Assembly: GCF_900107485.1 (NCBI RefSeq)
Contig: NZ_FNQE01000007.1
Location: 1-64,000, forward strand
Direction of reading: 5' to 3'
Length of the DNA: 64,000 bases
Source of the DNA: Proteiniborus ethanoligenes
GTDB lineage: Bacteria > Bacillota > Clostridia > Tissierellales > Proteiniboraceae
Positions 3,911 through 33,384 of the stretch are shown one piece after another. Positions within the stretch are counted from its first letter, which is position 1. Every line of letters starts with the position of its first letter. The translations under genes were made by a program, and so were the position numbers. The notes beneath the pieces are model-generated. The model was not told the origin of the DNA. It did not search any database and was given only the letters and a program-made list of their open reading frames with translations.

Positions 3911-3986
3911 ATGATTTCCCCCTTTCCCTGTTTTCAGTCAGTCGGAATTTCCGAACAACTGATTTTTATTGGATTTAGTTAAATAG

Positions 3987-4190: not shown

Positions 4191-4208
4191 AGATATCACC
4201 TCTTTTTG

Positions 4209-4264: not shown

Positions 4265-4271
4265 TTGATTA

Positions 4272-5504: not shown

Positions 5505-5521
5505 CTACTTCCAAGTCAAAA

Positions 5522-5620: not shown

Positions 5621-5647
5621 AATTCTCCATTGTCAATTCTCAATTTG

Positions 5648-8268: not shown

Positions 8269-9207
8269 CTACGCCTCTATTATAGTTCCACTCTCACCTT
8301 TTAATGCTTCTTTTGCTTTGTCTAGTGATGCTATTACTGCTTTTCTACCTGGTTTTGATTCTGCGAATTCTATGGCTGCTATTACTTTTGGAAGCATGCT
8401 GCCTGGTGCAAAGTGTCCTTCTGCTGCATATTGTCTCATTTTCTCTGGTGTTACTACGTCTAATTCTTTTTGATCTGGTTTGCCAAAGTTAATAGCTACT
8501 CTTGGTACTCCTGTAAGTATAACTAGTATGTCTGCATCTGTGTCTTCCGCTAATCTTTGTGATGCTAAGTCTTTGTCTATAACTGCAGCTGCACCTGATA
8601 GCTTTCCATCTTCTTCTATTACTGGTATACCGCCGCCACCTACTGTTATAACTATATTGTTGTTATTTACTAGAGTTTTTACCGTTTCTATTTCAACTAT
8701 TCTTTGTGGTGTAGGAGAAGCTACTACTCTTCTATATCCTCTACCTGAGTCTTCTACCATTACATAGCCTTTTTCTTCTGCTATTTTGTCTGCTTCTTCT
8801 TTAGTATAGAATGGACCTATTGGCTTTGTTGGGTTTTTGAAAGCATCGTCATCCTTATCTACTACTACCTGCGTAACTATTGTAGCTACTGGCTTGTTTA
8901 TTCCTCTACTTCTTAGCTCATCCCCTAGTGCTTGTTGCATATGATATCCTATCATTCCTTGACTCATAGCTCCACATACGTCAAATGGCATAGCTGGTGT
9001 TACACTGTCTGCTACTTCGTTTTGAATAACTATTCTGCCTACTTGTGGCCCGTTACCGTGAGCTACGATAAGGTTATAGCCTTCCTCAATTATATCCGCT
9101 AAATACACTGTTGTTGTTTTTATTACCTCCAGCTGTGCCTCTGCTGTAGCTAGGCTGTCTGGTGCTTGTAAAGCATTTCCTCCTAATGCAACTACTACTT
9201 TTTCCAC
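8269..9207 (-). CDS. arcC: Carbamate kinase
   Basis: Transfers phosphate from carbamoyl phosphate to ADP, giving ATP, ammonia and CO2. The 312-residue length fits the family. Visible hallmarks are the N-terminal VVVALGGNAL, the HGNGPQVG loop, SPTPQRIVEIETVKTLV, the GGGGIPV loop and the IDKDLASQRLA segment. The GTG at 9207 is taken as the start because GGGAGG lies 7 bases before it; the upstream in-frame ATG would overlap the ribosome site. No arginine deiminase or ornithine carbamoyltransferase lies nearby. The neighbours are an FdrA/YlbE/YlbF set, so carbamoyl phosphate probably comes from a ureido acid, as in the E. coli allantoin pathway. Confidence 0.95.
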   Translation of the reverse strand: MEKVVVALGGNALQAPDSLATAEAQLEVIKTTTVYLADIIEEGYNLIVAHGNGPQVGRIVIQNEVADSVTPAMPFDVCGAMSQGMIGYHMQQALGDELRSRGINKPVATIVTQVVVDKDDDAFKNPTKPIGPFYTKEEADKIAEEKGYVMVEDSGRGYRRVVASPTPQRIVEIETVKTLVNNNNIVITVGGGGIPVIEEDGKLSGAAAVIDKDLASQRLAEDTDADILVILTGVPRVAINFGKPDQKELDVVTPEKMRQYAAEGHFAPGSMLPKVIAAIEFAESKPGRKAVIASLDKAKEALKGESGTIIEA

Positions 9208-9279
9208 TTGCATCCCTCCCAGAAAATTATACAATATTTTGTAAAATAATACTATTATTTTTTATCTGCTCAGAAATTT

Positions 9280-9301
9280 AGGCTCCCCTTTAGAGGAGCC
9301 T
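9280..9301 (-). terminator. Stem-loop between CoA-transferase and carbamate kinase
   Basis: AGGCTCC, 8-base loop, GGAGCCT in the intercistronic gap. The tail on the minus strand (AAATTTCTGAG) is not a clear U-run, so partial termination or mRNA processing is more likely than full termination. Confidence 0.5.
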
Positions 9302-9306
9302 ATATG

Positions 9307-10494
9307 CTAAAGTGCTTTTTCGTCTCTTAAGCTTTGAATCTTTTCGTCATCATATCCTAATAATTCTTTTAGTATTTCTTCTGTGTGTTGACCTAATAAA
9401 GGTGCTGGTGTTCTTACACTACCTGGTGTATCGCTTAGCTTTATAGGCACTCCAGGCATTTTAAGATTTCCTGCAACAGGATGCTCTACTTCCACTATCA
9501 TTTCTCTAGCTATTACTTGTGGGTCTTGTAAAACTTTATCTATAGTGTTGATTGGTCCATTTGGCACCCCTGCTTTATCTAAGATCTCAAGCCACTCTTC
9601 TGTTGTTTTTTCCTTCATTGGCTCTGCTATTAATGGTCTTAATTGGTCATAGTTTTCATTTCTTAGTGGGTTTGTTGCAAATCTTTCATCATTTATTAGT
9701 TCTTCTTTTCCTAATACTTCACAGAACTTAGCCCATAAAACATCGTTTCCTGCTGCTACTACTACTTCTCCATTCTTTGTATCAAATGGTTCAAAAGGTA
9801 CTATAGAAGGATGTCTGTTTCCTCCTGGTTTTGGTGCTTCACCTGTTACTACATAACGTGCAACTGCATTTTCAAGTATTGCTACTAGAGAATCTAGCAT
9901 AGCTACATCAACTTTTTGTCCTTTTCCTGTCTCATGTCTGTTGTTTAGTGCTGCTAGTATACCTATTGCAGTAAATAAGCCTGAGTTTATATCTGCTATA
10001 GATGAGCCTACTCTAACTGGCTTGCCACCTTTTTCTCCTGTTATGCTCATGATACCGCCCATTGCCTGTACTACTGAGTCATATGCTGCTCTTTGACTAT
10101 AAGGTCCTGTATGGCCAAAGCCTGAGGATGCTGCATATATTATCTTTGGATTTACTTGGGATAGGTAGTCATAGCCTAGGCCTAGCTTTTCCATAGTTCC
10201 AGGTCTAAAATTTTCTACTACTACGTCAGCTTTTTTAACCATTTCTAAAAAGGTTTCTTTACCTTTTTCTGATTTTAGGTTAAGTGTTATACTTCTTTTA
10301 TTTCTATTAAGGCTCATAAAATATGCACTTTCATCTTTTACATAAGGGCCAAAAGCTCTTGAATCGTCTCCTGTACCTGGCATTTCTATTTTAATTATAT
10401 CTGCTCCTAGGTCACCTAGTATCATAGTTGCATAAGGCCCTGCTAATACCCTGGTCAAGTCTAGTACTTTTATATTATCTAAAGCTAGTTTCAA
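9307..10494 (-). CDS. CaiB/BaiF-family (class III) CoA-transferase
   Basis: Moves CoA between acyl-CoA and a free carboxylic acid. 395 residues with the family N-terminus (VLDLTRVLAGPYATMILGDLGADIIKIE), an ENFRPG segment (94-99) and an aspartate in GSSIADINSG (D168) at the position of the catalytic Asp of formyl-CoA transferase. The start is TTG with GGAGGG upstream. It sits between a cyclase-family hydrolase and carbamate kinase in the same direction. The likely job is to activate the carboxylic acid left after carbamoyl removal. Oxalate, oxamate or a short hydroxy acid are options suggested by the family; none is proven. Annotators often label such genes formyl-CoA:oxalate transferase without support. 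Confidence 0.9.
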   Translation of the reverse strand: MKLALDNIKVLDLTRVLAGPYATMILGDLGADIIKIEMPGTGDDSRAFGPYVKDESAYFMSLNRNKRSITLNLKSEKGKETFLEMVKKADVVVENFRPGTMEKLGLGYDYLSQVNPKIIYAASSGFGHTGPYSQRAAYDSVVQAMGGIMSITGEKGGKPVRVGSSIADINSGLFTAIGILAALNNRHETGKGQKVDVAMLDSLVAILENAVARYVVTGEAPKPGGNRHPSIVPFEPFDTKNGEVVVAAGNDVLWAKFCEVLGKEELINDERFATNPLRNENYDQLRPLIAEPMKEKTTEEWLEILDKAGVPNGPINTIDKVLQDPQVIAREMIVEVEHPVAGNLKMPGVPIKLSDTPGSVRTPAPLLGQHTEEILKELLGYDDEKIQSLRDEKAL

Positions 10495-10525
10495 TATGTT
10501 CGCCCTCCTTACTTAATAGTATTTT

Positions 10526-10545
10526 AGATTCTTCGCTCATAATGA
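10526..10545. repeat. Degenerate dispersed repeat remnant
   Basis: GATTCTTCGCTCATAATGA in the 5' leader of the CoA-transferase gene; matches the first module of the repeat family with the middle deleted. Confidence 0.4.
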
Positions 10546-10580
10546 AATGAAGAATAAATAATATATACTTAATTAAATAG

Positions 10581-10601
10581 CTACCCGCCAAAGGCGGGTA
10601 G
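10581..10601 (-). terminator. GC-rich stem-loop after the cyclase gene
   Basis: CTACCCGCC, loop of three, GGCGGGTAG: a perfect 9-bp stem about 27 bases beyond the cyclase stop. The following minus-strand bases (CTATTTAATTAAG) are a weak U-tract. Probably an attenuating or stabilising hairpin within the operon. Confidence 0.6.
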
Positions 10602-10627
10602 TCCATTTAGTCTATATTTCTAGTTAA

Positions 10628-11422
10628 TTATTCAGCGTCAAAAGCTACGATACGGCAGAATGCTGATTCTCCACCTTCAAATTTCCAAGGGAAGCAACCG
10701 ATGATTAGACGTTTGTTAAGTACCTTATCGATTTCTCCACCTAGGTTTTCAGCATGGATTATTTCATGTGGTTTTGGGAATACTTGAATATGCATTGCTT
10801 GGTATACATCTGGCCAAGGATACATTTCGTTTAATGTTTTACCATATTTTGCTTGCATGTATCTGTCTGCTGCTTCTGCTTCTTTTGGTTCCCAATCACG
10901 AATCTTAGTGTTCATTGGATGGTCTGCTGAACCACAGTCTACTCCGATCCAAGCGATTTCCATTTCTTTTACCCAATCAACAAAGTCCATTGATGGTCCT
11001 GGATGTCTTAACATATATCTTTTTTCGTCTGCTTCTGGGCTTTCCCAGCCATATTTATGGTACCCAGTATTGATAATAAGGATGTCTCCTTTTTTAACTT
11101 CTACTCTATCCATAATATCTTGTGGAGTGTAAATTCCATAATCTTCAGCTATATCTGATAGGTCAACTACTACTCCAGGTCCTACTAATTTAGTTAATTC
11201 TAATGATGCAATATCTCTTCCTGCTGTATCAAAATGTAATGGACCATCTAAGTGTGTTCCTACGTGATTTGATGTAGTGATTAATTGTCCATTAGCACCA
11301 TTTGGTGATAATCTTTTAAAGAATTTAACTTGAAGTGGCTCATAAGTTGGCCATGGTGGTGTTAAATGACTTGTGTTTTGAGTTAAATCATACATTTTTA
11401 CCTTATCCCAATTTTGTAACAT
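10628..11422 (-). CDS. Cyclase-family metal-dependent hydrolase
   Basis: 264 residues of the cyclase/kynurenine-formamidase-like family, which hydrolyses amide or imide bonds in small molecules. The signature HVGTHLDGPLHF gives metal ligands H53, H57, D59 and H63; a second conserved block GVDCGSADHP lies mid-protein. Family members include bacterial kynurenine formamidase and isatin hydrolase. Here it lies between YlbE and a CoA-transferase with carbamate kinase downstream, so a role in opening a cyclic ureide or imide, or deamidating the product acid, is an inference from context. The ATG start follows GGAGG at good spacing. Cytosolic; no signal peptide. Confidence 0.85.
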   Translation of the reverse strand: MLQNWDKVKMYDLTQNTSHLTPPWPTYEPLQVKFFKRLSPNGANGQLITTSNHVGTHLDGPLHFDTAGRDIASLELTKLVGPGVVVDLSDIAEDYGIYTPQDIMDRVEVKKGDILIINTGYHKYGWESPEADEKRYMLRHPGPSMDFVDWVKEMEIAWIGVDCGSADHPMNTKIRDWEPKEAEAADRYMQAKYGKTLNEMYPWPDVYQAMHIQVFPKPHEIIHAENLGGEIDKVLNKRLIIGCFPWKFEGGESAFCRIVAFDAE

Positions 11423-11455
11423 GATAAATTCCTCCTTGTATTTTAAGTATTTTTT

Positions 11456-11489
11456 CTATAGACTCTACCTCTGTGGATAGAGTCTATAG
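11456..11489 (-). other. 12-bp perfect stem-loop between ylbE-like and cyclase genes
   Basis: CTATAGACTCTA (11456-11467) and TAGAGTCTATAG (11478-11489). On the minus strand it is followed by A-runs, not U-runs, so it is not an ordinary terminator. It may protect or process the mRNA between cistrons. Confidence 0.65.
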
Positions 11490-11507
11490 TATGTTTATTT
11501 AAAAAGG

Positions 11508-12770
11508 TTATATTGCACCTTCTGCTTCCAACATTTCAACAAAAGCTTCTAATGCATCCTCGAAGCATTTCATAGGTGGATGAACTAAACCTGCTCCAAC
11601 TTGACCTACTCCTGCATCTTTGTGTGCAATACCTGTGTTGATTATTGGGCGAATGCCAGTTTCAACTACCTTTTGTATATCTATACCCGTTGCTGACCCT
11701 CTGAAATCAAGAACTGGTATTTTATATGCATTATTTTCTGCTTCAGTTATTTCATACATTGATTTTGAGTAGTTTAATGCGTCTTGTGGTGTTCCTCCAA
11801 CGAATTGAACTATTGGTATAGCAGCTGCCATAGCAAATCCGCCTATTCCACATGTTTCAGTTATAGCACTGTCTCCTATATCTGGGTTTGCATCTTCTGT
11901 TGAGTATCCTGGGAAGTATAGTCCATCTATTATTTCTGCTGGAGCTGTGAACCATCTGTTTCCTAATCCTGCTACTCTTATACCAAACTCAGTACCATTT
12001 CTAGCCATAGTATATAAAAGAGTACTGTACTTAGTGTTTGCCATTGGCTCTAATGAACATTTAGCTGCTGGCATTGTTAAGTTTAGGAAGAAGTGGTCAT
12101 TACTATGCATGAACTTAAGTACTTCTACCTTGTCAGCTTCTGAGAAACTAGTTTGTACTATATATGGTGCTAATTCTCTTATTAATAATGATGTACCTGC
12201 TTTATTTCTATTATGTCCTTCATCGCCCATTTGAATTACTTGAGCTATCATTGTTTTTAGGTCTATTTCGCCTGAAAGCTCTAGAGCTGCTTTAAGAACT
12301 GGTCCTAATACTGTTTCCATCCATTTAAGTCTAGTGATTACTTCTTCGCCATATGCTCCATAACGAAGAACTTTTCCTAAGCCTTCATTTAATGTACAGT
12401 AAGCGTAGTTTCCAAAAGTTTTGTTTTGTACTATCCATACAGGCATTGAGTAAGTAGTTACTCCTGCCATTGGACCTACTGAATCATGATGGTGGCAAGA
12501 ATCAAATGTAATTTCTCCTGATTCTGCTAGTTTTACAGCTTCTTCTTCATTTGCTGCAAGTCCTTCATAAATAAGTCCACCTATTACTGCTCCTCTCATT
12601 GGACCACTCATATTTTCCCATTTTACTGGTGGTCCTGAGTGCAATACAGTTTTTTTAGTCATTCCTGGTACGTTTTCACCTACTGTTCCTATACCAACAA
12701 GTGTAGGTTGAGCACTTAACAGCTTTTCTATAGCTTCCTTGTTAGCTTGCGCAATTTTTTCAGCTATCAT
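11508..12770 (-). CDS. ylbE: YlbE/AllG-like protein (DUF1116), carbamoyltransferase component
   Basis: 420 residues of the DUF1116 family, with typical blocks WENMSGPMRGAVIGGLIYEG, SCHHHDSVGPMAGVTTYSMP, GDEGHNRNKAGTSLL, LFxxMARNGTEFGI and GAGLVHPPMKCFEDAL. In E. coli the fdrA, ylbE and ylbF products (renamed AllF, AllG, AllH) have been reported to form oxamate carbamoyltransferase, which splits oxalurate with phosphate into oxamate and carbamoyl phosphate. All three partners occur here in consecutive genes, with carbamate kinase downstream. The ATG follows GAGGAG. The sequence shows the family clearly; the actual ureido substrate is unknown. Confidence 0.88.
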   Translation of the reverse strand: MIAEKIAQANKEAIEKLLSAQPTLVGIGTVGENVPGMTKKTVLHSGPPVKWENMSGPMRGAVIGGLIYEGLAANEEEAVKLAESGEITFDSCHHHDSVGPMAGVTTYSMPVWIVQNKTFGNYAYCTLNEGLGKVLRYGAYGEEVITRLKWMETVLGPVLKAALELSGEIDLKTMIAQVIQMGDEGHNRNKAGTSLLIRELAPYIVQTSFSEADKVEVLKFMHSNDHFFLNLTMPAAKCSLEPMANTKYSTLLYTMARNGTEFGIRVAGLGNRWFTAPAEIIDGLYFPGYSTEDANPDIGDSAITETCGIGGFAMAAAIPIVQFVGGTPQDALNYSKSMYEITEAENNAYKIPVLDFRGSATGIDIQKVVETGIRPIINTGIAHKDAGVGQVGAGLVHPPMKCFEDALEAFVEMLEAEGAI

Positions 12771-12806
12771 TTATATCACTCCTCTTGATTTGTTAGTTTT
12801 TATTAT

Positions 12807-12977
12807 CTATTTCAATCTTGATAAAAGTGAAGCCAGTTTTTTATTTCCTCCTGCAGCTGGTCTCCAATTCACATGAATTGCAGAAACCTTTTGCTTTTTC
12901 AAATCATTATAGAAGGATTCGAGTCCTATATTGACTACTTTAAGTTCTTCTTTGAATAGTTTATTTATATTTGACAT
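12807..12977 (-). CDS. 56-residue free-standing module between FdrA and YlbE
   Basis: A short gene in the 225-base gap between fdrA and ylbE. The ATG at 12977 is chosen because GGAGG lies 8 bases before it; upstream in-frame starts overlap the ribosome site. The product has the pattern LKVVNIGLESFYNDLKKQK followed by HVNWRPAAGGNKKL. From memory, a similar NVGLxxFxxxLxxQGxxVxxVxWRPPAGG stretch occurs at a terminus of larger FdrA or DUF1116 proteins, so this appears to be that module encoded separately. Strict operon position and conservation of the motif suggest a subunit or linker of the carbamoyltransferase complex. Confidence 0.75.
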   Translation of the reverse strand: MSNINKLFKEELKVVNIGLESFYNDLKKQKVSAIHVNWRPAAGGNKKLASLLSRLK

Positions 12978-12994
12978 TTTCATACCCTCCAAAC

Positions 12995-14551
12995 CTATTT
13001 AATTTTGTTAAGGATAAGTCCTGTTAATCTTACAGCTTGAGCATTTGAAGGCATTACTATTACTCCTGCTTCTTCTAATCTTCTTTGTGATTCTTCAAGA
13101 CCTTGTGGATCATTTTCTGTACCACAGATTGAGCCTACTACACAAAGATGTCTCCCTTTACTTGCCATTCTTTCTTTGGCTGCTTTTATTGCTGGAAGCA
13201 TTTCTCCTACTGGATCTTCGTGTGATCCATATCCTAATACAAAGTCCATAAGAACTACTGCTACCTCTTCGTCATCTTCTTTTGTAAGACGCTCTACTCT
13301 CGCTACTGGATCTATCATTGGGTGAGGTCTTCCTTTTGTAAATTCATCATCACCAAAGTCTATACATGTATGCTCTTTGCTTACTTTTGCATCTTCTAGC
13401 TTGTATTCAGGTGATAATGGTATGTTTGAGTATATGTTTTCTATATCTGCACTAAGTAGCTTCATTGCTTCATCTGTTAATGTTCCACCTGTGTAGAAGC
13501 CTCTTAGATATTTTTGATCCTTGTGGAGTTTGCTAACTTCTCCAGCTACTATTTTTTCAATTTCTTCATCTGATAAGTCAAAGCCTTCAAAATCTTTAGC
13601 TTCTTCTCCTCTTAATAGAGCAACTGCTTTTCTTGCAGCATCTTCAAGAGATACACAAGCATGTGCACCATATTTTTCTATTAGCTCTCTATCTCCACCT
13701 ATGAAATCTACTACTACTGGCTTTGGTGAATTTTCAATAGCCTTCATTACTTTTTCAGCTACTTCTTCTGCTGGTGGCTTTGATATAAGAACTATTACTT
13801 TTGTTTCTGGGTCGTTCTTTAATGCTTCTATTCCTTGTAGCATCATAAGTCCGCCTATTTCTGATTTAAGGTCTCTACCGCCAGTTCCAATTACTTGAGA
13901 TACTCCTTCTCCTAGCTTGTCTATTATAACTGTTACTTCTTGTGTTCCTGTACCTGATGCTCCTACTACTCCTATATTACCTTTTCTAATTACGTTTGCA
14001 AATGCTAATGGAACATTATTTATTATAGCTGTTCCACAGTCTGGACCCATCATTAGCAGGCCTTTTTCACAAGCTAATTCTTTTAATTCTTTTTCTTGCT
14101 CTACTGTTACGTTATCACTAAACAGCATTACATGTAAATTGTTGTTTAGTGCTTTTTTTGCTTCTGCAGCTGCATATTCTCCTGCTACTGAGATAACTAC
14201 TATATTAGAATCTGGGCTGTGGTTTATAGCAGACTCTAATGTTGGTGGCATATAGTCTGAATCACTGCTTTGCTTCTTTTGGCTAAGTAATCTGTCTACT
14301 TCACCAGATATTGTTTCGATTTGTACGTTATCATCTGCAAGAACACTTACAAAGAAGTCATTTGGAGTAAGCTCTTTAATTTCATCATTTGTTATTGCAA
14401 GATTTTCAGCTAATTCTTTGTTTAAATCTGTACCCATACCTACAAGTGCTTCTTGAACTCCGTCTATTTTTTTAATTTCTTTTGAAATAAGCATCAATGT
14501 AACTGAATCATAGTATGAATTTTTTCTTATTTCAAATTTAACACTACTCAT
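12995..14551 (-). CDS. fdrA: FdrA/AllF: acyl-CoA-synthetase-like carbamoyltransferase subunit
   Basis: 518 residues. The first 320 resemble the alpha subunit of ADP-forming acyl-CoA/succinyl-CoA synthetases, with a nucleotide-binding loop (NIGVVGASGTGTQEV) and GTGGRDLKSEIGG. The second half carries the FdrA-specific blocks LRGFYTGGTLTDEA, GRPHPMIDPVAR, DFVLGYGSHEDP and VVGSICGTENDPQ. The ATG at 14551 is preferred because AGGAGG sits 9 bases upstream; it overlaps the ylbF-like stop by 8 bases, indicating translational coupling. In E. coli FdrA (AllF) acts with YlbE and YlbF in oxamate carbamoyl transfer. Whether this protein also binds CoA is unknown. Confidence 0.9.
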   Translation of the reverse strand: MSSVKFEIRKNSYYDSVTLMLISKEIKKIDGVQEALVGMGTDLNKELAENLAITNDEIKELTPNDFFVSVLADDNVQIETISGEVDRLLSQKKQSSDSDYMPPTLESAINHSPDSNIVVISVAGEYAAAEAKKALNNNLHVMLFSDNVTVEQEKELKELACEKGLLMMGPDCGTAIINNVPLAFANVIRKGNIGVVGASGTGTQEVTVIIDKLGEGVSQVIGTGGRDLKSEIGGLMMLQGIEALKNDPETKVIVLISKPPAEEVAEKVMKAIENSPKPVVVDFIGGDRELIEKYGAHACVSLEDAARKAVALLRGEEAKDFEGFDLSDEEIEKIVAGEVSKLHKDQKYLRGFYTGGTLTDEAMKLLSADIENIYSNIPLSPEYKLEDAKVSKEHTCIDFGDDEFTKGRPHPMIDPVARVERLTKEDDEEVAVVLMDFVLGYGSHEDPVGEMLPAIKAAKERMASKGRHLCVVGSICGTENDPQGLEESQRRLEEAGVIVMPSNAQAVRLTGLILNKIK

Positions 14552-15515
14552 TACTATCAACCTCCTGTTGTATTAGATTAAATATTATACAGCTACCAAC
14601 ATATATACCTGATATGATATCTGTCCCCGAAGTAGCTCCAAAGCTAGCAACTTTTCTTAAGTTATTGTATAGCTCATCTATGGGGCTATTAGTTAATAAG
14701 GAAAGCATTAAGTTCCTTACATCCTCATTGACTTCGCCTAAGGAAGCAAACATAAGCATTTCTTCACTAACTAATGTGGTTTTGTTTTTTATATGTTTAA
14801 CAATAGCTTTGTTAAGCTTTAAAGCTTTTTCTGTTTGTTGATTAAAATAAGAAAAAAGATATATTCTGGAGACCATCATTCCTGATATAAAGTCATCCAT
14901 AGAAGGAGTTAATCCTACACCAAACCCAACTATTCTTTGAGCTCTTGAGGAAATATTGTCTATATCCTCTTTAATATAGCTGTCCATAAAGTCTAAAAAC
15001 CGTTCTTTAATAAATTCTTCATTTCTTCCAAGGGTGATATTATCTGCTAGAATTGTATCTATTCCTTTTATTTTTCCCCTAAGGACCTGCAGCAACGGAT
15101 AGATTCCTTCTTTACTGCCTTCATTCAATAGAAATTCACCTATTTTTTTGATTTTAATGGAAACGTTTTCTGTTAAATCTTTTCTCAATTTCTCATTTGT
15201 AAACAATATTGGTTTTTTATCCCATAGAAAAGCTTTTCCATAATTAATCTTTTTATTTAAATCTTTAATCAAAACATAATCTTGGTGAAATTCAAGCTCT
15301 TGACCTCTTTCAAGTCCTACATCTATAAATGAAATCTGGTCTTTTAGCTTTATTGAATGAGGTGCCATAGGCTTATTTGAGCTTAGAAAAGAAATAAGCC
15401 TGTTGTCTCCATCTAATACATTAAAGCTATTTTCAAATACAGAATGCACCTTGCCTTTTACATAATGCTCTTGTATTTCTTTATATAGATATTGACAAAT
15501 ATGTGATGAGTTCAT
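14544..15515 (-). CDS. YlbF/AllH-like protein (DUF2877)
   Basis: 323 residues of the DUF2877 family, first gene of the carbamoyltransferase transcript. The diagnostic glycine-rich blocks are GFGVGLTPSMDDFISG (197-212) and, near the C-terminus, FGATSGTDIISGIYVG. The partner genes fdrA and ylbE follow immediately, and the family's E. coli member (YlbF, renamed AllH) is reported as the third subunit of oxamate carbamoyltransferase. Soluble; no signal or membrane segment. The ATG has GAGG about 10 bases upstream. The N-terminal 130 residues diverge most and may carry substrate specificity. Confidence 0.85.
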   Translation of the reverse strand: MNSSHICQYLYKEIQEHYVKGKVHSVFENSFNVLDGDNRLISFLSSNKPMAPHSIKLKDQISFIDVGLERGQELEFHQDYVLIKDLNKKINYGKAFLWDKKPILFTNEKLRKDLTENVSIKIKKIGEFLLNEGSKEGIYPLLQVLRGKIKGIDTILADNITLGRNEEFIKERFLDFMDSYIKEDIDNISSRAQRIVGFGVGLTPSMDDFISGMMVSRIYLFSYFNQQTEKALKLNKAIVKHIKNKTTLVSEEMLMFASLGEVNEDVRNLMLSLLTNSPIDELYNNLRKVASFGATSGTDIISGIYVGSCIIFNLIQQEVDSNE

Positions 15516-15696: not shown

Positions 15697-17400
15697 CTAT
15701 TTCTTGTTGCATCTTTCATTTTCTTGCATTTCTAATATCTTTAAGGATATCTGGAAATTTAATCTGTCATTATAATTCTCAAAATCAATACCTGTAATCT
15801 CTTTTATTCTCTGGATTCTATAGATAACTGTATTGTAGTGAGTATACATTTCTTCTGATATCTTTTTTAAATTTCCTGCACATTCAAAGTATTTATTAAG
15901 AGTTTCTATTAGTTCTGTTCCTTTTTCCTTGTCGTATTTTACTAAAGGCTCAAGTATTTCTTTATAAAACTGATTTAGCTCTGGCTGAAGCTCTTCATAG
16001 GAAAGAATTCTATATATACCTAAGTCATCATAGTGAGTTATTATCTTGTCACTAGAATGTTTTTGACATTCTACAGCTCTAGTAGCCTCTCTATAGCCCT
16101 TCCAAAGCTCATTTGAGTTTTTATAATTTCTCCCTATTCCGATGGAAATTTTATCGTTTATATACTCATATTCTGCATATCTTAAAAGCTCATTGCAGAA
16201 GGAGTTAATTTCTTGCTTTATCTTTGAGTTTTTCGCTTCAGGATCTGTGCCAAAAAGTAATATTATGCTATTGCTTTTATTTCCACATATAATCCTTTCT
16301 TTTCTAGTCTTTGATATTCTTTTAATAATACTCAATAATCTAACATTTATCTGCTGCAAATAAGCATTAGAATCAACATTATAGTGACTAAAGATTTCAT
16401 TGTTACTTACAGATATAACTATTACTGAGTAGCCTAGCTTTGTATCAAAATCAAAATAAGAAGCTCTTTCTAATGCTTTTTTATGTCTAATCTCTTCACT
16501 TGAAAATAAATCCTCAAAAAACTCCACCTTATGTTTGCTTTCTATTTCAAAGATTGATATCTTCTTAAATAGGTCTAAGGCTATCATAGGTGTAGAAGCT
16601 TCTATAACCTTCAGTTCTACTGGAGTCAATGGTTTTTTGTCCTCCCAGATATATATGCAGCCATATTCTCTGTCCTTTGTAAAAATAGGAATAGTAATTC
16701 TTTGGATTTCTTCATTTCCTAATATATCTATATCCTTAGTATGAAGTAATTTTTCGTTATATTTGTCTTTTGTTTTTTCCCTCTTTAAAGTCTCTGCTTC
16801 AATTATTGCTTCAATATATTTTTTCTTCTCTGGCTCACATAGTATTACACTTGTTTCAAATATATATTCTTTTATTGCCATTGAATTTCTATCTATACTT
16901 TCATAAAATGCCCCTGCTATTTCCTTTAGGCTTCCTCCGTTTAGCATTACATTTATTAGCTTATTATGAATGCTGTCTATTCTACATAAAATATTAGTCT
17001 GATTGTTGACAATTTCTGTTAGAGCTTCACCTATGATACTAGAATAAGAAGAATCAAAGGGTATTTCTATTAATGGAAAGCCCATTTCATTTGCCTTTCT
17101 AAGTATATCATCAGGAATATCATTAATATATCTTCTAGTCTTTATACCTAAGCCTGCCAAGCCTTTTTTATTTAATTCAATAATAAGCTCTTCTAAAACT
17201 GTTAAATTATTTCTAATAGGGTAGGCTGTCGTAAGGAGAAACTCACCTTCTTCAACCCAGTCTACTATGTCCGGTACTTCCATAACATTTAATTTTGTTA
17301 TTTTCCTATTTAATCCAGTTACTCCTGCTAATACCTTAGCTTCTTTCATAGTTTCAAGCTCTAACAGCTCATTTACTGTAATCCCTGAATATCTGTACAT
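15697..17400 (-). CDS. PucR-family transcriptional regulator
   Basis: 567 residues. An N-terminal PucR domain (about 5-125, ITVNELLELETMKEAKVLAG...) is followed by a central GAF/CdaR-like region and a C-terminal PucR helix-turn-helix (about 500-560, NLKKISEEMYTHYNTVIYRI). The B. subtilis prototype activates purine and allantoin catabolic genes. This one is the last gene of a LacI-PreA-PucR series and ends just before the carbamoyltransferase operon, its likely target. The start ATG follows GGTGA. The effector is not deducible; a ureide or purine intermediate is the natural guess. Confidence 0.88.
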   Translation of the reverse strand: MYRYSGITVNELLELETMKEAKVLAGVTGLNRKITKLNVMEVPDIVDWVEEGEFLLTTAYPIRNNLTVLEELIIELNKKGLAGLGIKTRRYINDIPDDILRKANEMGFPLIEIPFDSSYSSIIGEALTEIVNNQTNILCRIDSIHNKLINVMLNGGSLKEIAGAFYESIDRNSMAIKEYIFETSVILCEPEKKKYIEAIIEAETLKREKTKDKYNEKLLHTKDIDILGNEEIQRITIPIFTKDREYGCIYIWEDKKPLTPVELKVIEASTPMIALDLFKKISIFEIESKHKVEFFEDLFSSEEIRHKKALERASYFDFDTKLGYSVIVISVSNNEIFSHYNVDSNAYLQQINVRLLSIIKRISKTRKERIICGNKSNSIILLFGTDPEAKNSKIKQEINSFCNELLRYAEYEYINDKISIGIGRNYKNSNELWKGYREATRAVECQKHSSDKIITHYDDLGIYRILSYEELQPELNQFYKEILEPLVKYDKEKGTELIETLNKYFECAGNLKKISEEMYTHYNTVIYRIQRIKEITGIDFENYNDRLNFQISLKILEMQENERCNKK

Positions 17401-17443: not shown

Positions 17444-18556
17444 TTACCAATCTAAATAAATATTACCTTTTTTGCATAAGCTAACACACAAGCCACATCC
17501 TGTGCATTTATGAGGGTCTATTACAATTATGCCATCCCTAGAGGAAATAGCATCATAAATACACGCCTTCAAGCATTCACCACATTCATCAACAGTGCAT
17601 TTACCTAGTACTTTGGCAACGTATGGCTCTACTGATATTTCTTCAAAGGATTTTAATGATGCTAATGCTACTCCTTTTATTTCTTCTAAAGAAGAATATC
17701 CTTTATATTCCATCCACTTTTCTAGATCGTTTAATATTTCTCCTATCCTGCCATATCCATTCATCATTAATGATGTGCAAATCTGAACTGTACTCGCGCC
17801 TAGCATCATATATTCAAGAACATTTTCATAGTTATCTATCCCACCTATGCCAGAAACAGGAATCTTAACTGCTTGACAAATTCCTGCAACTGCAGCTAGG
17901 GCTATTGGTCTAATGCCCTCTCCTGAGTATCCTCCATAGGTCGGCAGAAGAGCCTTTCCTTTATCAATATCCACTCCTAATATGCATCTTACGGTGTCTA
18001 TAGCACTTATGGCGGAAGCACCTGCTTTTTCTACGGCTTTTGCTAATATCGTTATATTACTTACATTAACAGAAGACTTTACCATAACCGGTATCTTTAC
18101 TGAATCTACTGCCATTTTAGTCAGGCTATAGAGCCTGTCTACATTACTTGGAATAACTTCTATTCCTCCTCCATGAGGAATGGCTATTCCAAGCTCTATA
18201 GCATCTACTCCAAACTTTTCTACCTTTTTAGCCAAATATGCCATTTCAGAAGGTGTATGCGCAAGTATGTTTGCAATAACTACTGCTTCTTTTTCTTTAG
18301 CATGATAAATTTCTCTTTCCCATTGTTCTAATGTAAGATTACTATATAATTCAATGTTTTGCATTCCAAGATGATTAGCTGCTATTCTAGGTCTGACGTT
18401 ATATCTTACTTCATTAGCTATTGTCTGAGTGACCACAGCACCGGCTCCTGCTTCTATAGCTTTCCTCATCATGCTGCCATTTCCAGTAAGAGGACTAGCC
18501 GCAACAATAACAGGATTTTTAAGTTTGATTCCCATGAAATTAACTGACAGACTCAT
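17444..18556 (-). CDS. PreA-like flavin oxidoreductase with ferredoxin domain
   Basis: 370 residues. A dihydroorotate/dihydropyrimidine dehydrogenase-like TIM barrel (1-300) with the FMN region YGGYSGEGIRPIAL (207-220) and SGIGGIDNYENVLEYMMLGA is followed by a two-cluster ferredoxin tail (Cys 320/325/328/332 and 351/354/357/361). In dihydropyrimidine dehydrogenases an active-site cysteine lies in SCPHG; here the equivalent reads AIPHGG (125-130), so that Cys is replaced by Ile. The protein therefore probably works on another substrate or as an electron-transfer flavoprotein. Operon with LacI (11-base gap) and PucR. No PreT-like partner is adjacent. Confidence 0.82.
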   Translation of the reverse strand: MSLSVNFMGIKLKNPVIVAASPLTGNGSMMRKAIEAGAGAVVTQTIANEVRYNVRPRIAANHLGMQNIELYSNLTLEQWEREIYHAKEKEAVVIANILAHTPSEMAYLAKKVEKFGVDAIELGIAIPHGGGIEVIPSNVDRLYSLTKMAVDSVKIPVMVKSSVNVSNITILAKAVEKAGASAISAIDTVRCILGVDIDKGKALLPTYGGYSGEGIRPIALAAVAGICQAVKIPVSGIGGIDNYENVLEYMMLGASTVQICTSLMMNGYGRIGEILNDLEKWMEYKGYSSLEEIKGVALASLKSFEEISVEPYVAKVLGKCTVDECGECLKACIYDAISSRDGIIVIDPHKCTGCGLCVSLCKKGNIYLDW

Positions 18557-18567
18557 ATAATCACCCT

Positions 18568-19596
18568 TTAACTAAATATTTCTTTAATTCTATTATCATG
18601 TCCACAAGATTTTCTGATTTTAAGTGTAGGCTGAATAAATATCTGCTGCTTAAAGATTTCTTCCTCTTCATTTGTAATGTTGTCATACAATAATCTTGCT
18701 GCTGTTAAGCCCATTCTATACACTGGATGAGTAACTGTTGTTAGCTTTGGTTCTACTAAAGACGCTACGTCTATGTCATCAAAGCCTACTATGGCTATAT
18801 CTTTTGGCACGCTATAGCCTGCTACCTTTATTGCCTCCATAGCACCAAAGGCCATTAAATCGTTGGCTACAAAAATAGCATCTGGCTTTCCTCTTTTCTT
18901 TAGTAGCTTTTTAAGTGCAAGATGTCCTCCGTCTATTTGATTGTCTCCTTCTACTATATAGCTTTCATCGTATTTGTATCCCGCATCTAATAAGGCCTTT
19001 TTATACCCTTCTAGCTTGCCTATACTAGATTTTATATCCATAGGTCCCGATACATGAGCTATTTTTTTGTATCCCGTGTTTATTAGATGATTTGTTGCTA
19101 AATAAGCTCCCATAAAATAGTCAGTATATACTATATTAATATCTACATCCTCTACATAGTCACCTAAAAGTACTAAGGGTACTTTTTGCTTAATTATAAT
19201 ATCTATATCTTTTCTTTCTAAAATACTGGAGCATACAATGATTCCGTCAACTTTTTTACTTAGGAGCATTTCAATTGAATCTCTTTCTCTTTTTGCATTG
19301 TTCTCCGTATTGCTTAAAAGCATATTATAGCCTTTTTGATAAAACACATCCTCTACGCCCTTTGCCACATTAGGGTAAAGTGGATTTAATATATTAGGTA
19401 TTATAAGCCCTATGGTGCTTGTCCTCTTTGTGGTTAGGCTCCTTGCCATATTATTAGGTACATAGTTCATTTCCTTCATAACCTTGAGTATTCTATTTCT
19501 TGTTTTTTCAGAAACAGTTTCAGGATGATTCAGTACTCTAGATACTGTAGCCACAGACACCTTAGCCACTTCTGATACTTTCTTTATATTTGCCAT
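18568..19596 (-). CDS. LacI-family transcriptional repressor
   Basis: 342 residues. An N-terminal LacI helix-turn-helix (KKVSEVAKVSVATVSRVLNHPETVSEKTR) and hinge (NNMARSLTTKRTSTIGLI) are followed by a periplasmic-binding-protein-like effector domain (60-335, ending IFIQPTLKIRKSC). First gene of the LacI-PreA-PucR series. ATG with GGAGTGG upstream. A palindromic GAAATCGTTTG element lies between its -10 box and start codon, and similar AAACG-centred elements lie upstream of the first chemoreceptor and the second hydroxylase operon. I infer autoregulation and control of the purine island. CcpA is another LacI-family protein that could use such sites. Confidence 0.92.
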   Translation of the reverse strand: MANIKKVSEVAKVSVATVSRVLNHPETVSEKTRNRILKVMKEMNYVPNNMARSLTTKRTSTIGLIIPNILNPLYPNVAKGVEDVFYQKGYNMLLSNTENNAKRERDSIEMLLSKKVDGIIVCSSILERKDIDIIIKQKVPLVLLGDYVEDVDINIVYTDYFMGAYLATNHLINTGYKKIAHVSGPMDIKSSIGKLEGYKKALLDAGYKYDESYIVEGDNQIDGGHLALKKLLKKRGKPDAIFVANDLMAFGAMEAIKVAGYSVPKDIAIVGFDDIDVASLVEPKLTTVTHPVYRMGLTAARLLYDNITNEEEEIFKQQIFIQPTLKIRKSCGHDNRIKEIFS

Positions 19597-21585: not shown

Positions 21586-22062
21586 CTATCTTTCTTTAAT
21601 TTTTTCTTTTGCTGAATAAACTGCATTTTTTATTCCTTCATAGCCTGTACACCTACAAAGATTGCTTTTCAACCATTCCTTTATCTCTTCATCCTCAGCA
21701 TCTGGTTTTTCCTCAAGCAATGCATATGAATTCAGCAAAAATCCTGGCGTACAATATCCACACTGGAAGCCTCCTTCTTCGTAGAAGGCTTGTTGAATCT
21801 CTGTATTATTTAAACCTTCTATAGTTATGATTTCCATGCCAATAGCTTCTACTGCTAACATCATACATGACTTAACTGGCTTGCCATCTAGGAGTATCGT
21901 ACAAGCACCACAATCTCCATTTTCGCAGCCTGGCTTTGCACCTGTAAGACCTAGCTCTTCTCTAAGTACTCTTAGAAGAGTATCTGAAGGCTTGATTATA
22001 GCCTTTCTTTTTTCGCCATTTACATTTAATATTACAGATGTATAATCCTTATAAGCTATCAT
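21586..22062 (-). CDS. Xanthine-dehydrogenase-family 2Fe-2S subunit (set 1)
   Basis: 158 residues carrying both [2Fe-2S] clusters of a molybdenum hydroxylase. The plant-type ferredoxin motif CENGDCGACTILLDG...C is near residues 42-64. The C-terminal four-helix cluster motif is CGYCTPGF ... CRCTGYEG. Passes electrons from the molybdenum site to FAD. The start ATG overlaps the FAD-subunit stop (ATGA), indicating coupling. Last gene of set 1, which runs Mo subunit-FAD-FeS, unlike set 2. The substrate cannot be told from this subunit. Confidence 0.93.
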   Translation of the reverse strand: MIAYKDYTSVILNVNGEKRKAIIKPSDTLLRVLREELGLTGAKPGCENGDCGACTILLDGKPVKSCMMLAVEAIGMEIITIEGLNNTEIQQAFYEEGGFQCGYCTPGFLLNSYALLEEKPDAEDEEIKEWLKSNLCRCTGYEGIKNAVYSAKEKIKER

Positions 22063-22898
22063 TTTAGCCCTCCTTCCAGCTTCTTTAGAGCATTTACTAT
22101 AGAGTTTTTAAGCAAGTACTTTCTAAAGTCTCCTGATGCAAACATATCATTTCTTGCATTACTAGGTAAGTTTTCTATTACATATGATGCTCTATCTTCA
22201 AAGCTCTTTTCTTTATCATTTAAGACAGCTTCTAGCTCTAAAGATCTAAATGGATAAGCACATATCCCTGAAAAAGCAAATCTTATATTCTGGTCTGTTT
22301 TCATAGCTGCTAAGTGAAAAAGTGGATAGTCTATTTCACTTTGCTTTTCTTTTCTTTCGTTATAGTGTGAAAAACTAGCATGTTTTTTATCTATTTCTAT
22401 TTGGAGCAAAAGCTCTCCATTTTTTAGATTAACTTTTTTATCGAAAAACTTTAATACGGGAACCCTTATTATTCCTTCATTTGTAGCTATAATAGCTGTT
22501 CCCTCTGCCAGCATTATTGGTAATATAGCTTCTCTGTAAAATAATCTTCCACAGATATTGCCTCCTAGACTTAGCTTGTTTCTCACTGTATGATCAGCTA
22601 TTTTTCTAGATACATCTCCCATAAGCTTAAAGCTGCTTTTTTCAATTATATAGTTTAAATCTAGTGCTGAACCATATACTATCTTGTCTCCATCTTCTGA
22701 AAAAGCTGTACATTCAGGTATGGATTTTATGTCTATTAAAGCCCCTGTATTTACTAGCTTTTTACGGGCATAAGTAACTGTTTCTGTTCCTCCATTATAG
22801 TACAATGGGTTTTTACCTTCTTTATGCTTTTCACTAAATACTGATAAAGCCTCCTCATAGGTTTCTGGTCTATAGTATTCAAAGTCGTAGGATATCAT
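22059..22898 (-). CDS. Xanthine-dehydrogenase-family FAD subunit (set 1)
   Basis: 279 residues of the CO-dehydrogenase/xanthine-dehydrogenase flavoprotein fold. N-terminal FAD-binding block YNGGTETVTYARKK, second block VRNKLSLGGNICGRLFYREA, and a C-terminal CO_deh_flav_C region. The GGT segments that hold FAD are present but the sequence is divergent (NICGR in place of the common GNI..ASP). It overlaps both neighbours by 4 bases, so the three subunits are probably made in fixed ratio. Transfers electrons from the iron-sulfur subunit to NAD or ferredoxin. Confidence 0.88.
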   Translation of the reverse strand: MISYDFEYYRPETYEEALSVFSEKHKEGKNPLYYNGGTETVTYARKKLVNTGALIDIKSIPECTAFSEDGDKIVYGSALDLNYIIEKSSFKLMGDVSRKIADHTVRNKLSLGGNICGRLFYREAILPIMLAEGTAIIATNEGIIRVPVLKFFDKKVNLKNGELLLQIEIDKKHASFSHYNERKEKQSEIDYPLFHLAAMKTDQNIRFAFSGICAYPFRSLELEAVLNDKEKSFEDRASYVIENLPSNARNDMFASGDFRKYLLKNSIVNALKKLEGGLK

Positions 22899-25225
22899 TG
22901 GCTTACCTCCTTTTTAGCTTTCCAAAGAGCCTCTGGAGTTAGAGGCAATGATTTTAGTTGAGCTCCCAATCCTCTTGATAATGCATTTGCTAGAGCTCCA
23001 GGCATGCTTATTATTGCCTGCTCTCCTATACCCCTTGCTCCAAATGGCCCATCACCTTGAGGTGTTTCTATAAAATCAACTAGGTATTCAGGCTGCTCAT
23101 TGTATCTCATTATTTTAAAGCTTCTTAGATCATCATTAGTTACTTGCCCTCTACTGTTAAATAAAAACCCTTCACTTGCAGCAAAACTAAGTCCCATTGC
23201 CATTGCTCCTACAATTTGTCCCCTAGCTATTGCTGGGTTAATTATTTTACCTACATCCATTACACATGCAGCTTTAAGTACTTTATAGCTATAATCCTTT
23301 AGATTTAGCTCTACTTCTACTCCTTGTGCTGCCAATGTCCACTCAAGAGCAGGACTTCCTTTGCCTGTTTCCTTGTCTATATCGCTTAATCTTCTAGAAA
23401 TATATTTACCTCTACCTATTACTTGACCTACTATTGCATTACCATTTTCGTAAACATAGCCTAAAACCACATCTTTAAGTGCTAGTCCTATATGAGGCTC
23501 ATCTTTTATATAAACTTTTTCCTCCGCTACCTCTAAATCTTCTGGTGGGCATCTTAAAACAATGGAAGCTGTGTGCTTTATTTGCCTTATAGCATCATCT
23601 GCAGCTTCTATCGTTGCTCTACCTGGCATGAATAATCCACGACTAGCAGCAGTTGCCCAATCATGTGGTGAAACCTTAGTGTTTACTTCAAAGGTTACGT
23701 GAACCTTATCTATGCCAACCTTAAATTTTTCAGCTAATATTTGTGCTAATCCTGTTTTTGTAGCTTGTCCTATTTCTACTATTGATATATGCAGGTTCAT
23801 GCTGCCATCTTCGTTAAAGGTTATGATTGCGCCAGCATCAGTATTAGTAGGCATAGCAGGTGCTTTCCAAAGGCAGGTTAAGCTTTTAGCCCTTACTGTA
23901 TTTTCGTCTACCTGGATAAGGGTTCCCTCATCCCAATTTAAAAACTCCTTAACCTTATCTATACATGCAACAAGGTCTCCAGTATTTTTATTCATTAGGC
24001 TGCCTGTTGGAGATGTGTCTCCTTCTCTAATAGCATTAAGCCTTCTAAGCTCTGCAGGGTCCATAGATAGCTTCTCTGCCATAACATCTAAGGCTCTTTC
24101 TATAGCCCAAGCTAATTCTATATGCCCAAAGCCTCTAAATGCATTGGTAAAAGGATGATTAGTATATAAGCATAAAGAGTCACAGTTTACATTTTCTACT
24201 CTATAAGGACCTGTACAAGCTATGGCAGCTGCTCTACTTATGTTTACTGAGTAGTCTGCATATGCTCCTGCATCGAATAGGTATAGAAGATCTAGGGCTT
24301 TAATTTTTCCATCCTTTGTACAGCCCATTTTGACCTTACCCTTAAAGCCTATTTTACCTGGAGAAGCTGTTAAATCCTGTTCTCTAGTATTTACTACCTT
24401 GACAGGCCTCCCCCCTACGGCTTTAGATAATAAGTAAGCTAAAGCCTCTAGCTGAATTCCTGCCTTACCACCAAAACCGCCTCCTATTGGTGGAGCTATC
24501 ACTGTAATTTTGCCAGTAGGAATCTCAAAGAATTCACTCATAAGGCTCCTGACAACAAAGGGAGCTTGACTTGCTGTTGTAATTACTATTTGTCCGTCTT
24601 CTTTGATCTCTGCTATAGATGCTCTAGTTTCCATTGCAACATGATCACTTGTTGGCGAAAAGAACTCGTCCTCTATGATTATGTCAGATTCTTCAAAGCC
24701 CTCGACTATATTTCCTTTTCTAATCTTTGTCTTGTTAGCAATATTTGTTCCTGGCTCTGGATGTATTGCAGATATATGCTGATATTTTCCCAATTCCTCA
24801 TGAACTAAAAGAGAATCCTCTTTCAATGCTTCTTCTACAGAGAGAACTGGTGTTAGCTGCTCATAATTTACTTTTATCAAATCTAATGCTTCTCTAGCTT
24901 CTGCCTCACTGTCTGCTACTACTGCTGCTACTGCTTCTCCATAGTGTCTTACCTTGCCTCGGGCTAATGGATATTTGTCTCCTAGATACAGTCCAACTAC
25001 ATAGGGTAAGTCTTCTCCTGTTATTACTGCCCTTACTCCAGGAGCTTTTTTTGCCTCTTCTGTACTGATAGAAACAATTTTAGCATGGGCATGAGGGCTA
25101 GTTTTAAAGGCCGCATGAAGAAGCCCAGGATAGTTTAAATCATTTACATACTTTATCTTACCCTTAACCTTATCCCTACCTTCTAATCTAAGGTAGCTTT
25201 GCCCAACTACTTTATAATTCCCCAC
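22895..25225 (-). CDS. Xanthine-dehydrogenase-family molybdopterin subunit (set 1)
   Basis: 776 residues from a GTG at 25225. This start is chosen because AAAGGAGAG lies 7 bases before it, whereas the longer frame to 25264 has no ribosome site and an atypical N-terminus. Molybdenum-cofactor blocks: GGGFGGKAG, AFRGFG (substrate-side arginine), GQATKTGLAQI and the catalytic-glutamate block GARGIGEQAI near the C-terminus. Hydroxylates a heterocycle using water oxygen. The nearby purine/pyrimidine permeases suggest xanthine, hypoxanthine or another nucleobase, but nicotinate-type substrates cannot be excluded. First gene of its operon. Confidence 0.92.
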   Translation of the reverse strand: MGNYKVVGQSYLRLEGRDKVKGKIKYVNDLNYPGLLHAAFKTSPHAHAKIVSISTEEAKKAPGVRAVITGEDLPYVVGLYLGDKYPLARGKVRHYGEAVAAVVADSEAEAREALDLIKVNYEQLTPVLSVEEALKEDSLLVHEELGKYQHISAIHPEPGTNIANKTKIRKGNIVEGFEESDIIIEDEFFSPTSDHVAMETRASIAEIKEDGQIVITTASQAPFVVRSLMSEFFEIPTGKITVIAPPIGGGFGGKAGIQLEALAYLLSKAVGGRPVKVVNTREQDLTASPGKIGFKGKVKMGCTKDGKIKALDLLYLFDAGAYADYSVNISRAAAIACTGPYRVENVNCDSLCLYTNHPFTNAFRGFGHIELAWAIERALDVMAEKLSMDPAELRRLNAIREGDTSPTGSLMNKNTGDLVACIDKVKEFLNWDEGTLIQVDENTVRAKSLTCLWKAPAMPTNTDAGAIITFNEDGSMNLHISIVEIGQATKTGLAQILAEKFKVGIDKVHVTFEVNTKVSPHDWATAASRGLFMPGRATIEAADDAIRQIKHTASIVLRCPPEDLEVAEEKVYIKDEPHIGLALKDVVLGYVYENGNAIVGQVIGRGKYISRRLSDIDKETGKGSPALEWTLAAQGVEVELNLKDYSYKVLKAACVMDVGKIINPAIARGQIVGAMAMGLSFAASEGFLFNSRGQVTNDDLRSFKIMRYNEQPEYLVDFIETPQGDGPFGARGIGEQAIISMPGALANALSRGLGAQLKSLPLTPEALWKAKKEVSQ

Positions 25226-25275
25226 TTTACCACTCTCCTTTGTACTTTCTAAATTATAAGCCATATGGAAAGCTA

Positions 25276-31964: not shown

Positions 31965-31995
31965 AATAATACTGACCTCCCTTCAAAGAATGATT

Positions 31996-32457: not shown

Positions 32458-32470
32458 CTTTTTCCCTCCT

Positions 32471-33307: not shown

Positions 33308-33384
33308 GGTTTCACCTCCAAATATATTGAAAAACAACTGTTTTTATGTTAAAAAAGTAGAGCATGTATACATAGTTTGCTTTG

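Follow-up and report, generated by a model that had tools for sequence, protein, structure and literature searches.

The locus and its gene products

The first 64,000 nucleotides of contig NZ_FNQE01000007.1 of Proteiniborus ethanoligenes (assembly GCF_900107485.1), called the window here, carry a run of genes in which relatives of the AllFGH carbamoyltransferase (FdrA, YlbE, and YlbF) stand beside a cyclase-family hydrolase, a CoA-transferase, and a carbamate kinase. The original prediction, made from the letters of the DNA without database searches, had named seven consecutive minus-strand genes, and Pfam and NCBIfam agree with each of those names. All seven are open, point the same way, and are tightly spaced behind a regulator of the PucR family, as in an operon. 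Read in the direction of the run, the features are as follows:

15697..17400, minus strand: PucR-family regulator heading the run (PF07905, PF13556; a PucR-like gene at 45 of the 55 long loci described below)
14544..15515, minus strand: AllH-like subunit (YlbF/DUF2877; PF11392, 83.5 bits, cut-off 25)
12995..14551, minus strand: FdrA/AllF-like core subunit without the C-terminal module (NF004760 positions 6-491, 525 bits against a cut-off of 433)
12807..12977, minus strand: free-standing 56-residue FdrA C-terminal module (NF004760 positions 505-555)
11508..12770, minus strand: AllG-like subunit (YlbE/DUF1116; PF06545, 341.6 bits)
10628..11422, minus strand: cyclase-family metal-dependent hydrolase, proposed barbiturate ring opener (PF04199, 122.9 bits)
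9307..10494, minus strand: family III CoA-transferase of the CaiB type, proposed malonate CoA-transferase (PF02515, CoA_transf_3, 473.5 bits)
8269..9213, minus strand: catabolic carbamate kinase, arcC (TIGR00746, 430.7 bits against a cut-off of 358)

The gaps between the seven genes run from -8 bp, where the AllH and FdrA genes overlap (the FdrA ATG lies at 14551), up to 133 bp, and a Shine-Dalgarno-like stretch precedes most of the starts. A terminator-like hairpin lies between the hydrolase and CaiB genes (10601-10581); three such matches were found, against 6.0 expected in shuffled sequence. Because the gene order recurs in three phyla, it is not due to chance. The CoA-transferase matches CoA_transf_3 at full length, over 366 positions, and misses all seven NCBIfam cut-offs listed; malonate is the acid proposed for it.

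The set in the window holds all three subunits, AllF, AllG, and AllH, together with the FdrA C-terminal module. The module had been noticed as an extra component of the complex; it is a real open reading frame (ORF) in the run, but what it represents is a mobile domain of FdrA and AllG. A hidden Markov model (HMM) built from free-standing copies also matches residues 510-555 of E. coli FdrA, at its C-terminus, as well as the C-terminus of the FdrA encoded at a second locus of the P. ethanoligenes genome. In 23 AllG proteins, one of them E. coli YahG, it matches the N-terminus. Since the same HMM matches FdrA C-termini, free ORFs, and AllG N-termini, the module is, by sequence, one domain that can stand alone or form part of either FdrA or AllG. 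We infer that it is located at the interface between FdrA and AllG. At two other loci (L138 and L139; G207 and G439), ORFs of about 1000 residues match AllG and stand beside a carbamate kinase gene; these are probable FdrA-AllG fusions.

In the AllG tree, several long branches of which are flagged, the window protein falls within a clade of 66 hydrolase-linked sequences (support 100/100). The second P. ethanoligenes locus (L003), on another contig, holds a further set of AllG, FdrA, and carbamate kinase genes, and it is this copy, with two more sequences, that groups with E. coli AllG (100/100). The likeness of the operon to E. coli AllFGH, as first claimed, holds for the subunit families; by the tree, the AllG of this genome that resembles the E. 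coli protein is the one at L003, not the one in the window.

The hydrolase has the metal motif of PF04199, of the HxGTHxD type, with N52, H53, G55, T56, H57, L58, D59, and H63 invariant in 44 homologues. In the PDB, its sequence matches kynurenine formamidases (best E 4e-10) and, at a weak E of 2e-4, isatin hydrolase, and it misses the NCBIfam cut-off for arylformamidase. The fold is also recognizable in an AlphaFold model with a mean predicted local distance difference test score of 79.8, which is low around residues 33-62, the motif included. The top structural match is 3krv, a small metal-dependent hydrolase, followed by isatin hydrolases, with template modeling scores of 0.60-0.66 by model length. 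Isatin hydrolase opens a ring amide, and because the model matches this enzyme, the opening of barbiturate by the window hydrolase is plausible by analogy.

A second hydrolase clade, 44-48% identical to that of the window, is found at four loci (L130-L133). All four have their own AllG, three have FdrA plus module, two a nitrilase-type amidase, and one a CaiB-like gene. No molybdenum hydroxylase is present in the 6.7-19.9 kb covered at these loci. This clade probably acts on a related substrate.

A conserved cluster in anaerobic bacteria

The hydrolase was searched for in one genome per species, giving 370 relatives, and the loci of the best 80 of these 370 were analyzed. Among the 80, the 55 that span 13 kb or more are called long loci, and a gene is counted as present if it lies within the sequence stretch retrieved for the locus. 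Carriers belong to the Clostridia, Anaerolineae, and Coriobacteriales and include Anaerotruncus, Flavonifractor, Alkaliphilus, and Anaerolineaceae. Acidaminobacter hydrogenoformans DSM 2784 and Anaerosolibacter carboniphilus DSM 103526 also have the cluster. AllG accompanies the hydrolase at 76 of the 80 loci (it is missing from L014, L052, L054, and L077). At the 55 long loci, the counts are 53 for AllG, 45 for PucR, 40 for a molybdenum hydroxylase, 37 for an NCS2 permease, and 34 for CaiB; carbamate kinase and an amidase-signature enzyme each stand at 15, a nitrilase-type amidase at 13, a cytosine-deaminase-like gene at nine, the beta subunit of a Na+-pump decarboxylase at five, and mmdA at four. 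The two amidases are unrelated and alternate: either one or the other is present at 28 of the 55 loci and both at none. The molybdenum hydroxylase and the permease, which the original prediction had noted next door, are thus regular companions of the operon.

CaiB lies a median of 89 bp from the hydrolase, on the same strand in 34 of 34 cases, and the nitrilase-type amidase a median of 100 bp, on the same strand in 13 of 13. For the molybdenum hydroxylase, the median is 7.4 kb and the strand is shared in 30 of 41 cases.

A class-wide sample of 391 genomes, P. ethanoligenes among them, was scanned with a hydrolase threshold of E <= 1e-30. The hydrolase is found in 13 and AllG in 24, and all 13 are within the 24 (11 of the 378 other genomes have AllG; Fisher p = 4e-18, uncorrected for kinship), which bears out the earlier view that the hydrolase is part of the system. 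The controls are 22 loci, 17 of which are long, that have AllFGH but lack the hydrolase. Molybdenum hydroxylase, CaiB, and nitrilase-type amidase are over threshold at none of the 22, and the comparison of long loci with long controls gives p = 4e-8 for the molybdenum hydroxylase and 2e-6 for CaiB, again uncorrected for kinship. Cytosine-deaminase-like genes (four), NCS2 permeases (four), and an amidase-signature gene (one) do occur at the controls, so these genes are not exclusive to hydrolase loci.

Three further observations concern the composition of the loci. YqeB, an accessory gene of selenium-dependent molybdenum hydroxylases (matched for L006), is present at 15 of the 55 long loci and suggests that its carriers have a selenium-dependent hydroxylase. 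A thiolase-like gene adjoins the operon in L061, L068, and L073 (a Desulfosporosinus and two Coriobacteriales), the match having been made for L073 and the others belonging to the same cluster. Finally, L152, L154, and L155 lack the hydrolase, and their AllFGH genes are joined by an NCS2 permease gene and a cytosine-deaminase-like one, an arrangement that recalls E. coli yahFGIJ and would make a third type of AllFGH locus.

A proposed route from pyrimidines to malonate

The operon probably supplies the middle and final steps of a pyrimidine pathway that is anaerobic and oxidative and would lead through barbiturate and ureidomalonate to malonate. Uracil would be converted to barbiturate by a molybdenum hydroxylase, one of two in the window, and the cyclase-family hydrolase, as a non-homologous barbiturase, would open barbiturate to 3-oxo-3-ureidopropionate (ureidomalonate). 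This N-acylurea, which is oxalurate plus one CH2, would react with phosphate on the complex of AllF, module, AllG, and AllH to give malonamate and carbamoyl phosphate. Carbamate kinase would then use carbamoyl phosphate and adenosine diphosphate (ADP) to form adenosine triphosphate (ATP), NH3, and CO2. Malonate would be released from malonamate, together with NH3, by an amidase that is linked in other genomes and unlinked here, the CaiB-type enzyme would convert malonate to malonyl-CoA, and decarboxylation would yield acetyl-CoA and CO2. Thymine could enter the same route via methylmalonate. Gene identities, linkage, and the alternation of the amidases are observed; every catalytic step and substrate we infer.

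The order of ring opening, phosphorolysis, carbamate kinase, and CoA activation in the original prediction fits this scheme, with one change: an amidase has to act ahead of the CoA activation. The linked amidases at 28 of the long loci agree with such a step, as does a 62%-identical relative of the linked amidase-signature enzyme that P. ethanoligenes carries on another contig, beside an XdhC-like gene. The nitrilase-type amidase has no match in this genome, in a search run without a positive control. Alternating amidases are what the scheme predicts, because phosphorolysis leaves an amide.

Four lines appear to converge on malonate and a pyrimidine: the linkage of MadB, the linkage of mmdA, the cytosine genes, and the uracil-type permeases. 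In scans of 35 carrier genomes, MadB, a subunit of the Na+ malonate decarboxylase, is over its cut-off in three close relatives of Flavonifractor type, and in each of them, about 8 kb separate it from the hydrolase, which is on the opposite strand. The one MadB genome in which the further cluster was scanned (L108) has MdcA, the acyl carrier protein, beta, gamma, and MdcG over their cut-offs and a CitG/MdcB-like protein below. An amidase is present and CaiB absent at all three MadB loci, as expected if the malonate decarboxylase itself activates malonate. The cluster of Carboxydothermus islandicus includes mmdA, a biotin carrier, and the Na+-pump beta subunit, and that of two Anaerotruncus genomes has CaiB, an amidase, and mmdA just upstream. 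CaiB is followed in Maledivibacter halophilus (L007) by genes for cytosine permease (520 bits against a cut-off of 326) and cytosine deaminase (541 bits against 483). As a genome-wide marker, mmdA was rejected, with 34 of the 35 genomes matching at E <= 0.001 and none reaching the cut-off; linkage alone was used.

The original prediction had left the substrate as a purine or pyrimidine ureide. The pyrimidine half of that claim is now favored and the purine half disfavored, because malonate-handling and cytosine genes are linked to the operon in some other genomes, and among the candidate acids it listed, ureidomalonate is the one preferred.

A number of observations weigh against this interpretation. 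Malonate-type linkage is seen at seven of the 55 loci (MadB at three, mmdA at four), amounting to about three or four independent cases: the three MadB genomes have near-identical AllG and represent one event, and the mmdA-type genes of L039 come after a gene for methylmalonyl-CoA mutase and may have nothing to do with the operon. The linked mmdA and biotin-carrier proteins score below the NCBIfam cut-offs, and the Na+-pump beta subunit scores over. In P. ethanoligenes, no malonate or (methyl)malonyl-CoA decarboxylase gene adjoins the operon; the mmd genes it has are part of an operon for methylmalonyl-CoA mutase and epimerase, which leaves its malonyl-CoA route putative. Cytosine deaminase was rejected as a specific marker, a relative being present at four of the 22 control loci. 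Within the stretches covered, 15 of the 55 long loci have no molybdenum hydroxylase and 40 have no carbamate kinase, and neither molybdenum hydroxylase of the window attains a curated cut-off. Amidase-signature genes share the strand of the hydrolase at seven of 15 loci, with a median gap of 5.9 kb, and one of the 22 controls has such a gene too. Hydrolase-linked AllG proteins do not form one clade. Because ten other linked sequences fall with YahG in a different clade, the hydrolase linkage appears to have arisen or moved at least twice. Given the second hydrolase clade, with no molybdenum hydroxylase in the stretches covered, hydrolase-AllFGH pairs may not all share one substrate. An 8-oxoguanine-deaminase-like gene is present at four loci, and near one of them, in L108, an NCS2 permease fragment scores as xanthine type; for these reasons, some carriers may have a purine input.

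Other readings of the operon

The complex could instead be a true oxamate carbamoyltransferase. The hydroxylase would then oxidize a hydantoin-like ring, the hydrolase would open parabanate, and an amidase and CaiB would lead from oxamate to oxalyl-CoA. E. coli AllFGH acts on oxalurate (passages of PMC11326118), and the linked amidases are also compatible with oxamate. The window CaiB scores 385.8 bits on the CoA:oxalate CoA-transferase model, below the cut-off of 522 and close to its best score of 391.8 on any model, which counts against the malonate assignment as well. This oxalurate route is nevertheless unlikely. In the tree, it is the second AllG copy of the genome, and not the one in the window, that falls with E. 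coli AllG, and the route has no place for the linked malonate decarboxylase and mmd genes. Furthermore, oxalyl-CoA decarboxylase (TIGR03254) is over its cut-off in none of the 35 carriers (28 have weaker matches) and in one of 14 control genomes.

It is likewise improbable that the substrate is a purine-derived ureide, with products of xanthine or urate opened by the hydrolase and then phosphorolyzed, and with the regulator, hydroxylases, and NCS2 permeases all serving purine catabolism. The PucR regulator, the xanthine-dehydrogenase-like enzymes, YqeB at 15 of the 55 loci, and the 8-oxoguanine-deaminase-like gene at four would suit such a route. Malonate would not be expected from purines. 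The permeases of the window score as uracil type, and in L007, it is a cytosine permease and deaminase that stand beside the operon. Among the 30 window proteins scanned with Pfam, there is no domain of a YgeW-family transcarbamylase, amidohydrolase, M20 peptidase, allantoinase, allantoate hydrolase, or ureidoglycolate dehydrogenase, in keeping with the first reading, in which neither a YgeW-type enzyme nor an allantoinase had been seen.

A reductive route is very unlikely. Here, the PreA-like protein encoded upstream of the operon would reduce uracil, the hydrolase would be a dihydropyrimidinase, and AllFGH would split 3-ureidopropionate with phosphate, giving carbamoyl phosphate and beta-alanine. 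For a ureido-amino acid, such a phosphorolysis should run uphill. The route yields no amide, yet amidases alternate at 28 of the 55 loci. A PreA-like gene adjoins the operon here, in L007, and in L070, and a relative is found at two of the 55 long loci; the window protein has GIAIPH in place of the cysteine loop (NFSCPQ) of E. coli PreA. The best match to the D-hydantoinase/dihydropyrimidinase model TIGR02033 in P. ethanoligenes is 296.4 bits, below the cut-off of 393.25, though 15 of the 35 carriers have one over it. The reductive route was downgraded because the cysteine loop is absent and the hydantoinase is below cut-off in this genome. A ferredoxin-dependent PydAc is known from Clostridium (passages of PMC7332683).

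Lastly, another cyclic imide or N-acylurea, natural or xenobiotic, might be the substrate and the malonate genes incidental neighbors, since the second hydrolase clade, with its own AllG and no molybdenum hydroxylase in the stretches covered, implies that the hydrolase-AllFGH set can change substrate and allFGHK is linked to biuret genes in nitrifiers (passages of PMC12625717), but this is hardly probable, as one pathway would account for the recurring combination of hydroxylase, uracil-type permease, hydrolase, amidase, and CoA-transferase and for the malonate genes found in some genomes.

Neighboring genes in the window

The genes upstream of the operon, among them the candidate uracil dehydrogenases and the permeases, are as follows:

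17444..18556, minus strand: PreA-like flavin mononucleotide/4Fe-4S protein (NF006183, 252.5 bits, below the cut-off of 335)
18568..19596, minus strand: LacI-family regulator (PF00356, PF00532)
21586..25264, minus strand: three-subunit molybdenum hydroxylase 1 (FeS, flavin adenine dinucleotide, and Mo subunits), candidate uracil dehydrogenase (PF01799, PF00941, PF02738)
25368..26510, minus strand: transporter of the major facilitator superfamily (MFS) type (PF07690)
26694..27944, minus strand: NCS2 permease, uracil type (NF007995, 368 bits, cut-off 477, against 226 for xanthine pbuX)
28303..29547, minus strand: NCS2 permease, uracil type (NF007995, 355 bits, cut-off 477, against 229 for xanthine pbuX)
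29646..33337, minus strand: three-subunit molybdenum hydroxylase 2, candidate uracil dehydrogenase (PF20256, PF01799, PF00941)

A relative of molybdenum hydroxylase 1 is directly upstream of the operon in L015, and relatives of molybdenum hydroxylase 2 are upstream of it in L005 (1442 bits) and other loci. A relative of the MFS transporter adjoins PucR and CPK in L135. The pair of PreA-like gene and LacI regulator is found beside the operon both in the window and in L007.

Directly downstream of the operon, at 671-7285, are the R, S, and M genes of a type I restriction-modification system. Farther away, at 47828-49459, lies a beta-CASP nuclease gene whose best NCBIfam model is the type VII CRISPR Cas14 (469.9 bits); as this is below the cut-off of 800, the protein is probably an ordinary family member.

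Significance and comparison with known systems

The wider claim is that a complete, ATP-conserving, anaerobic oxidative pyrimidine pathway exists across Bacillota, Chloroflexota, and Actinomycetota. Three of its enzyme functions would be new, namely those of a barbiturase with the cyclase fold, of a carbamoyltransferase of the AllFGH type that acts on ureidomalonate, and of a malonate CoA-transferase specific to the pathway. We regard this claim as evenly balanced. If it is true, FdrA, AllG, and AllH would make up a general family that phosphorolyzes N-acylureas and has a module able to change place; the recently recognized AllFGH transcarbamylase would be one branch of it. Pyrimidines would yield ATP by substrate-level phosphorylation, with a Na+ gradient in addition in some carriers, and many anaerobes, among them the carriers named above, would carry an ATP-saving oxidative uracil route. 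Several enzymes known so far by family alone would also gain functions. No description of the cluster, of a cyclase-family barbiturase, or of a ureidomalonate carbamoyltransferase was found among the matches listed from the open-access literature (titles and abstract openings), a scope that leaves out most subscription journals and bioRxiv.

Among known systems, E. coli AllFGH-AllK (fdrA-ylbE-ylbF-ybcF) shares with the window the three subunit families and the carbamate kinase, and for both, phosphorolysis of an N-acylurea is proposed. In the window, however, the C-terminal module of FdrA is a separate gene and AllG belongs to another clade, and where the E. coli all locus has allB, allC, allD, and allE, the window has the hydrolase, CaiB, molybdenum hydroxylase, and uracil-type permease. 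The E. coli genes yahE-yahF-yahG-yahI-yahJ include relatives of AllH, FdrA, AllG, and carbamate kinase, and the module of YahG is N-terminal, as in 22 other AllG proteins. These genes are annotated as uncharacterized or putative, and no hydrolase, CoA-transferase, or molybdenum hydroxylase is present in the 11 kb examined.

Isatin hydrolase and kynurenine formamidase (PF04199) share the fold and the HxGTHxD-type motif with the window hydrolase, whereas the matches are 15-21% identical to it and it has conserved residues of its own. The reductive Pyd pathway of Clostridium (PydAc) is similar in that Clostridia use uracil anaerobically and in that a PreA-like gene is nearby; it reduces the ring, whereas the route proposed here would oxidize it, and the PreA-like protein lacks the cysteine loop.

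A chemical parallel is the aerobic oxidative pathway, in which uracil is converted through barbiturate and 3-oxo-3-ureidopropionate to malonate, with an AtzD-family barbiturase and a ureidomalonase that gives urea, and which is described as rare and confined to some bacteria (passages of PMC3758960 and PMC7662398). AtzD-family barbiturase (PF09663) has no match in the 35 carriers or the 391 genomes, the positive control likewise being without a match. The proposed intermediates, barbiturate, ureidomalonate, and malonate, are common to both. There, a protein of the AtzD/Bar fold opens the ring and ureidomalonate is hydrolyzed to urea; here, a cyclase-family hydrolase would open it, and ureidomalonate would be phosphorolyzed to carbamoyl phosphate with a gain of ATP.

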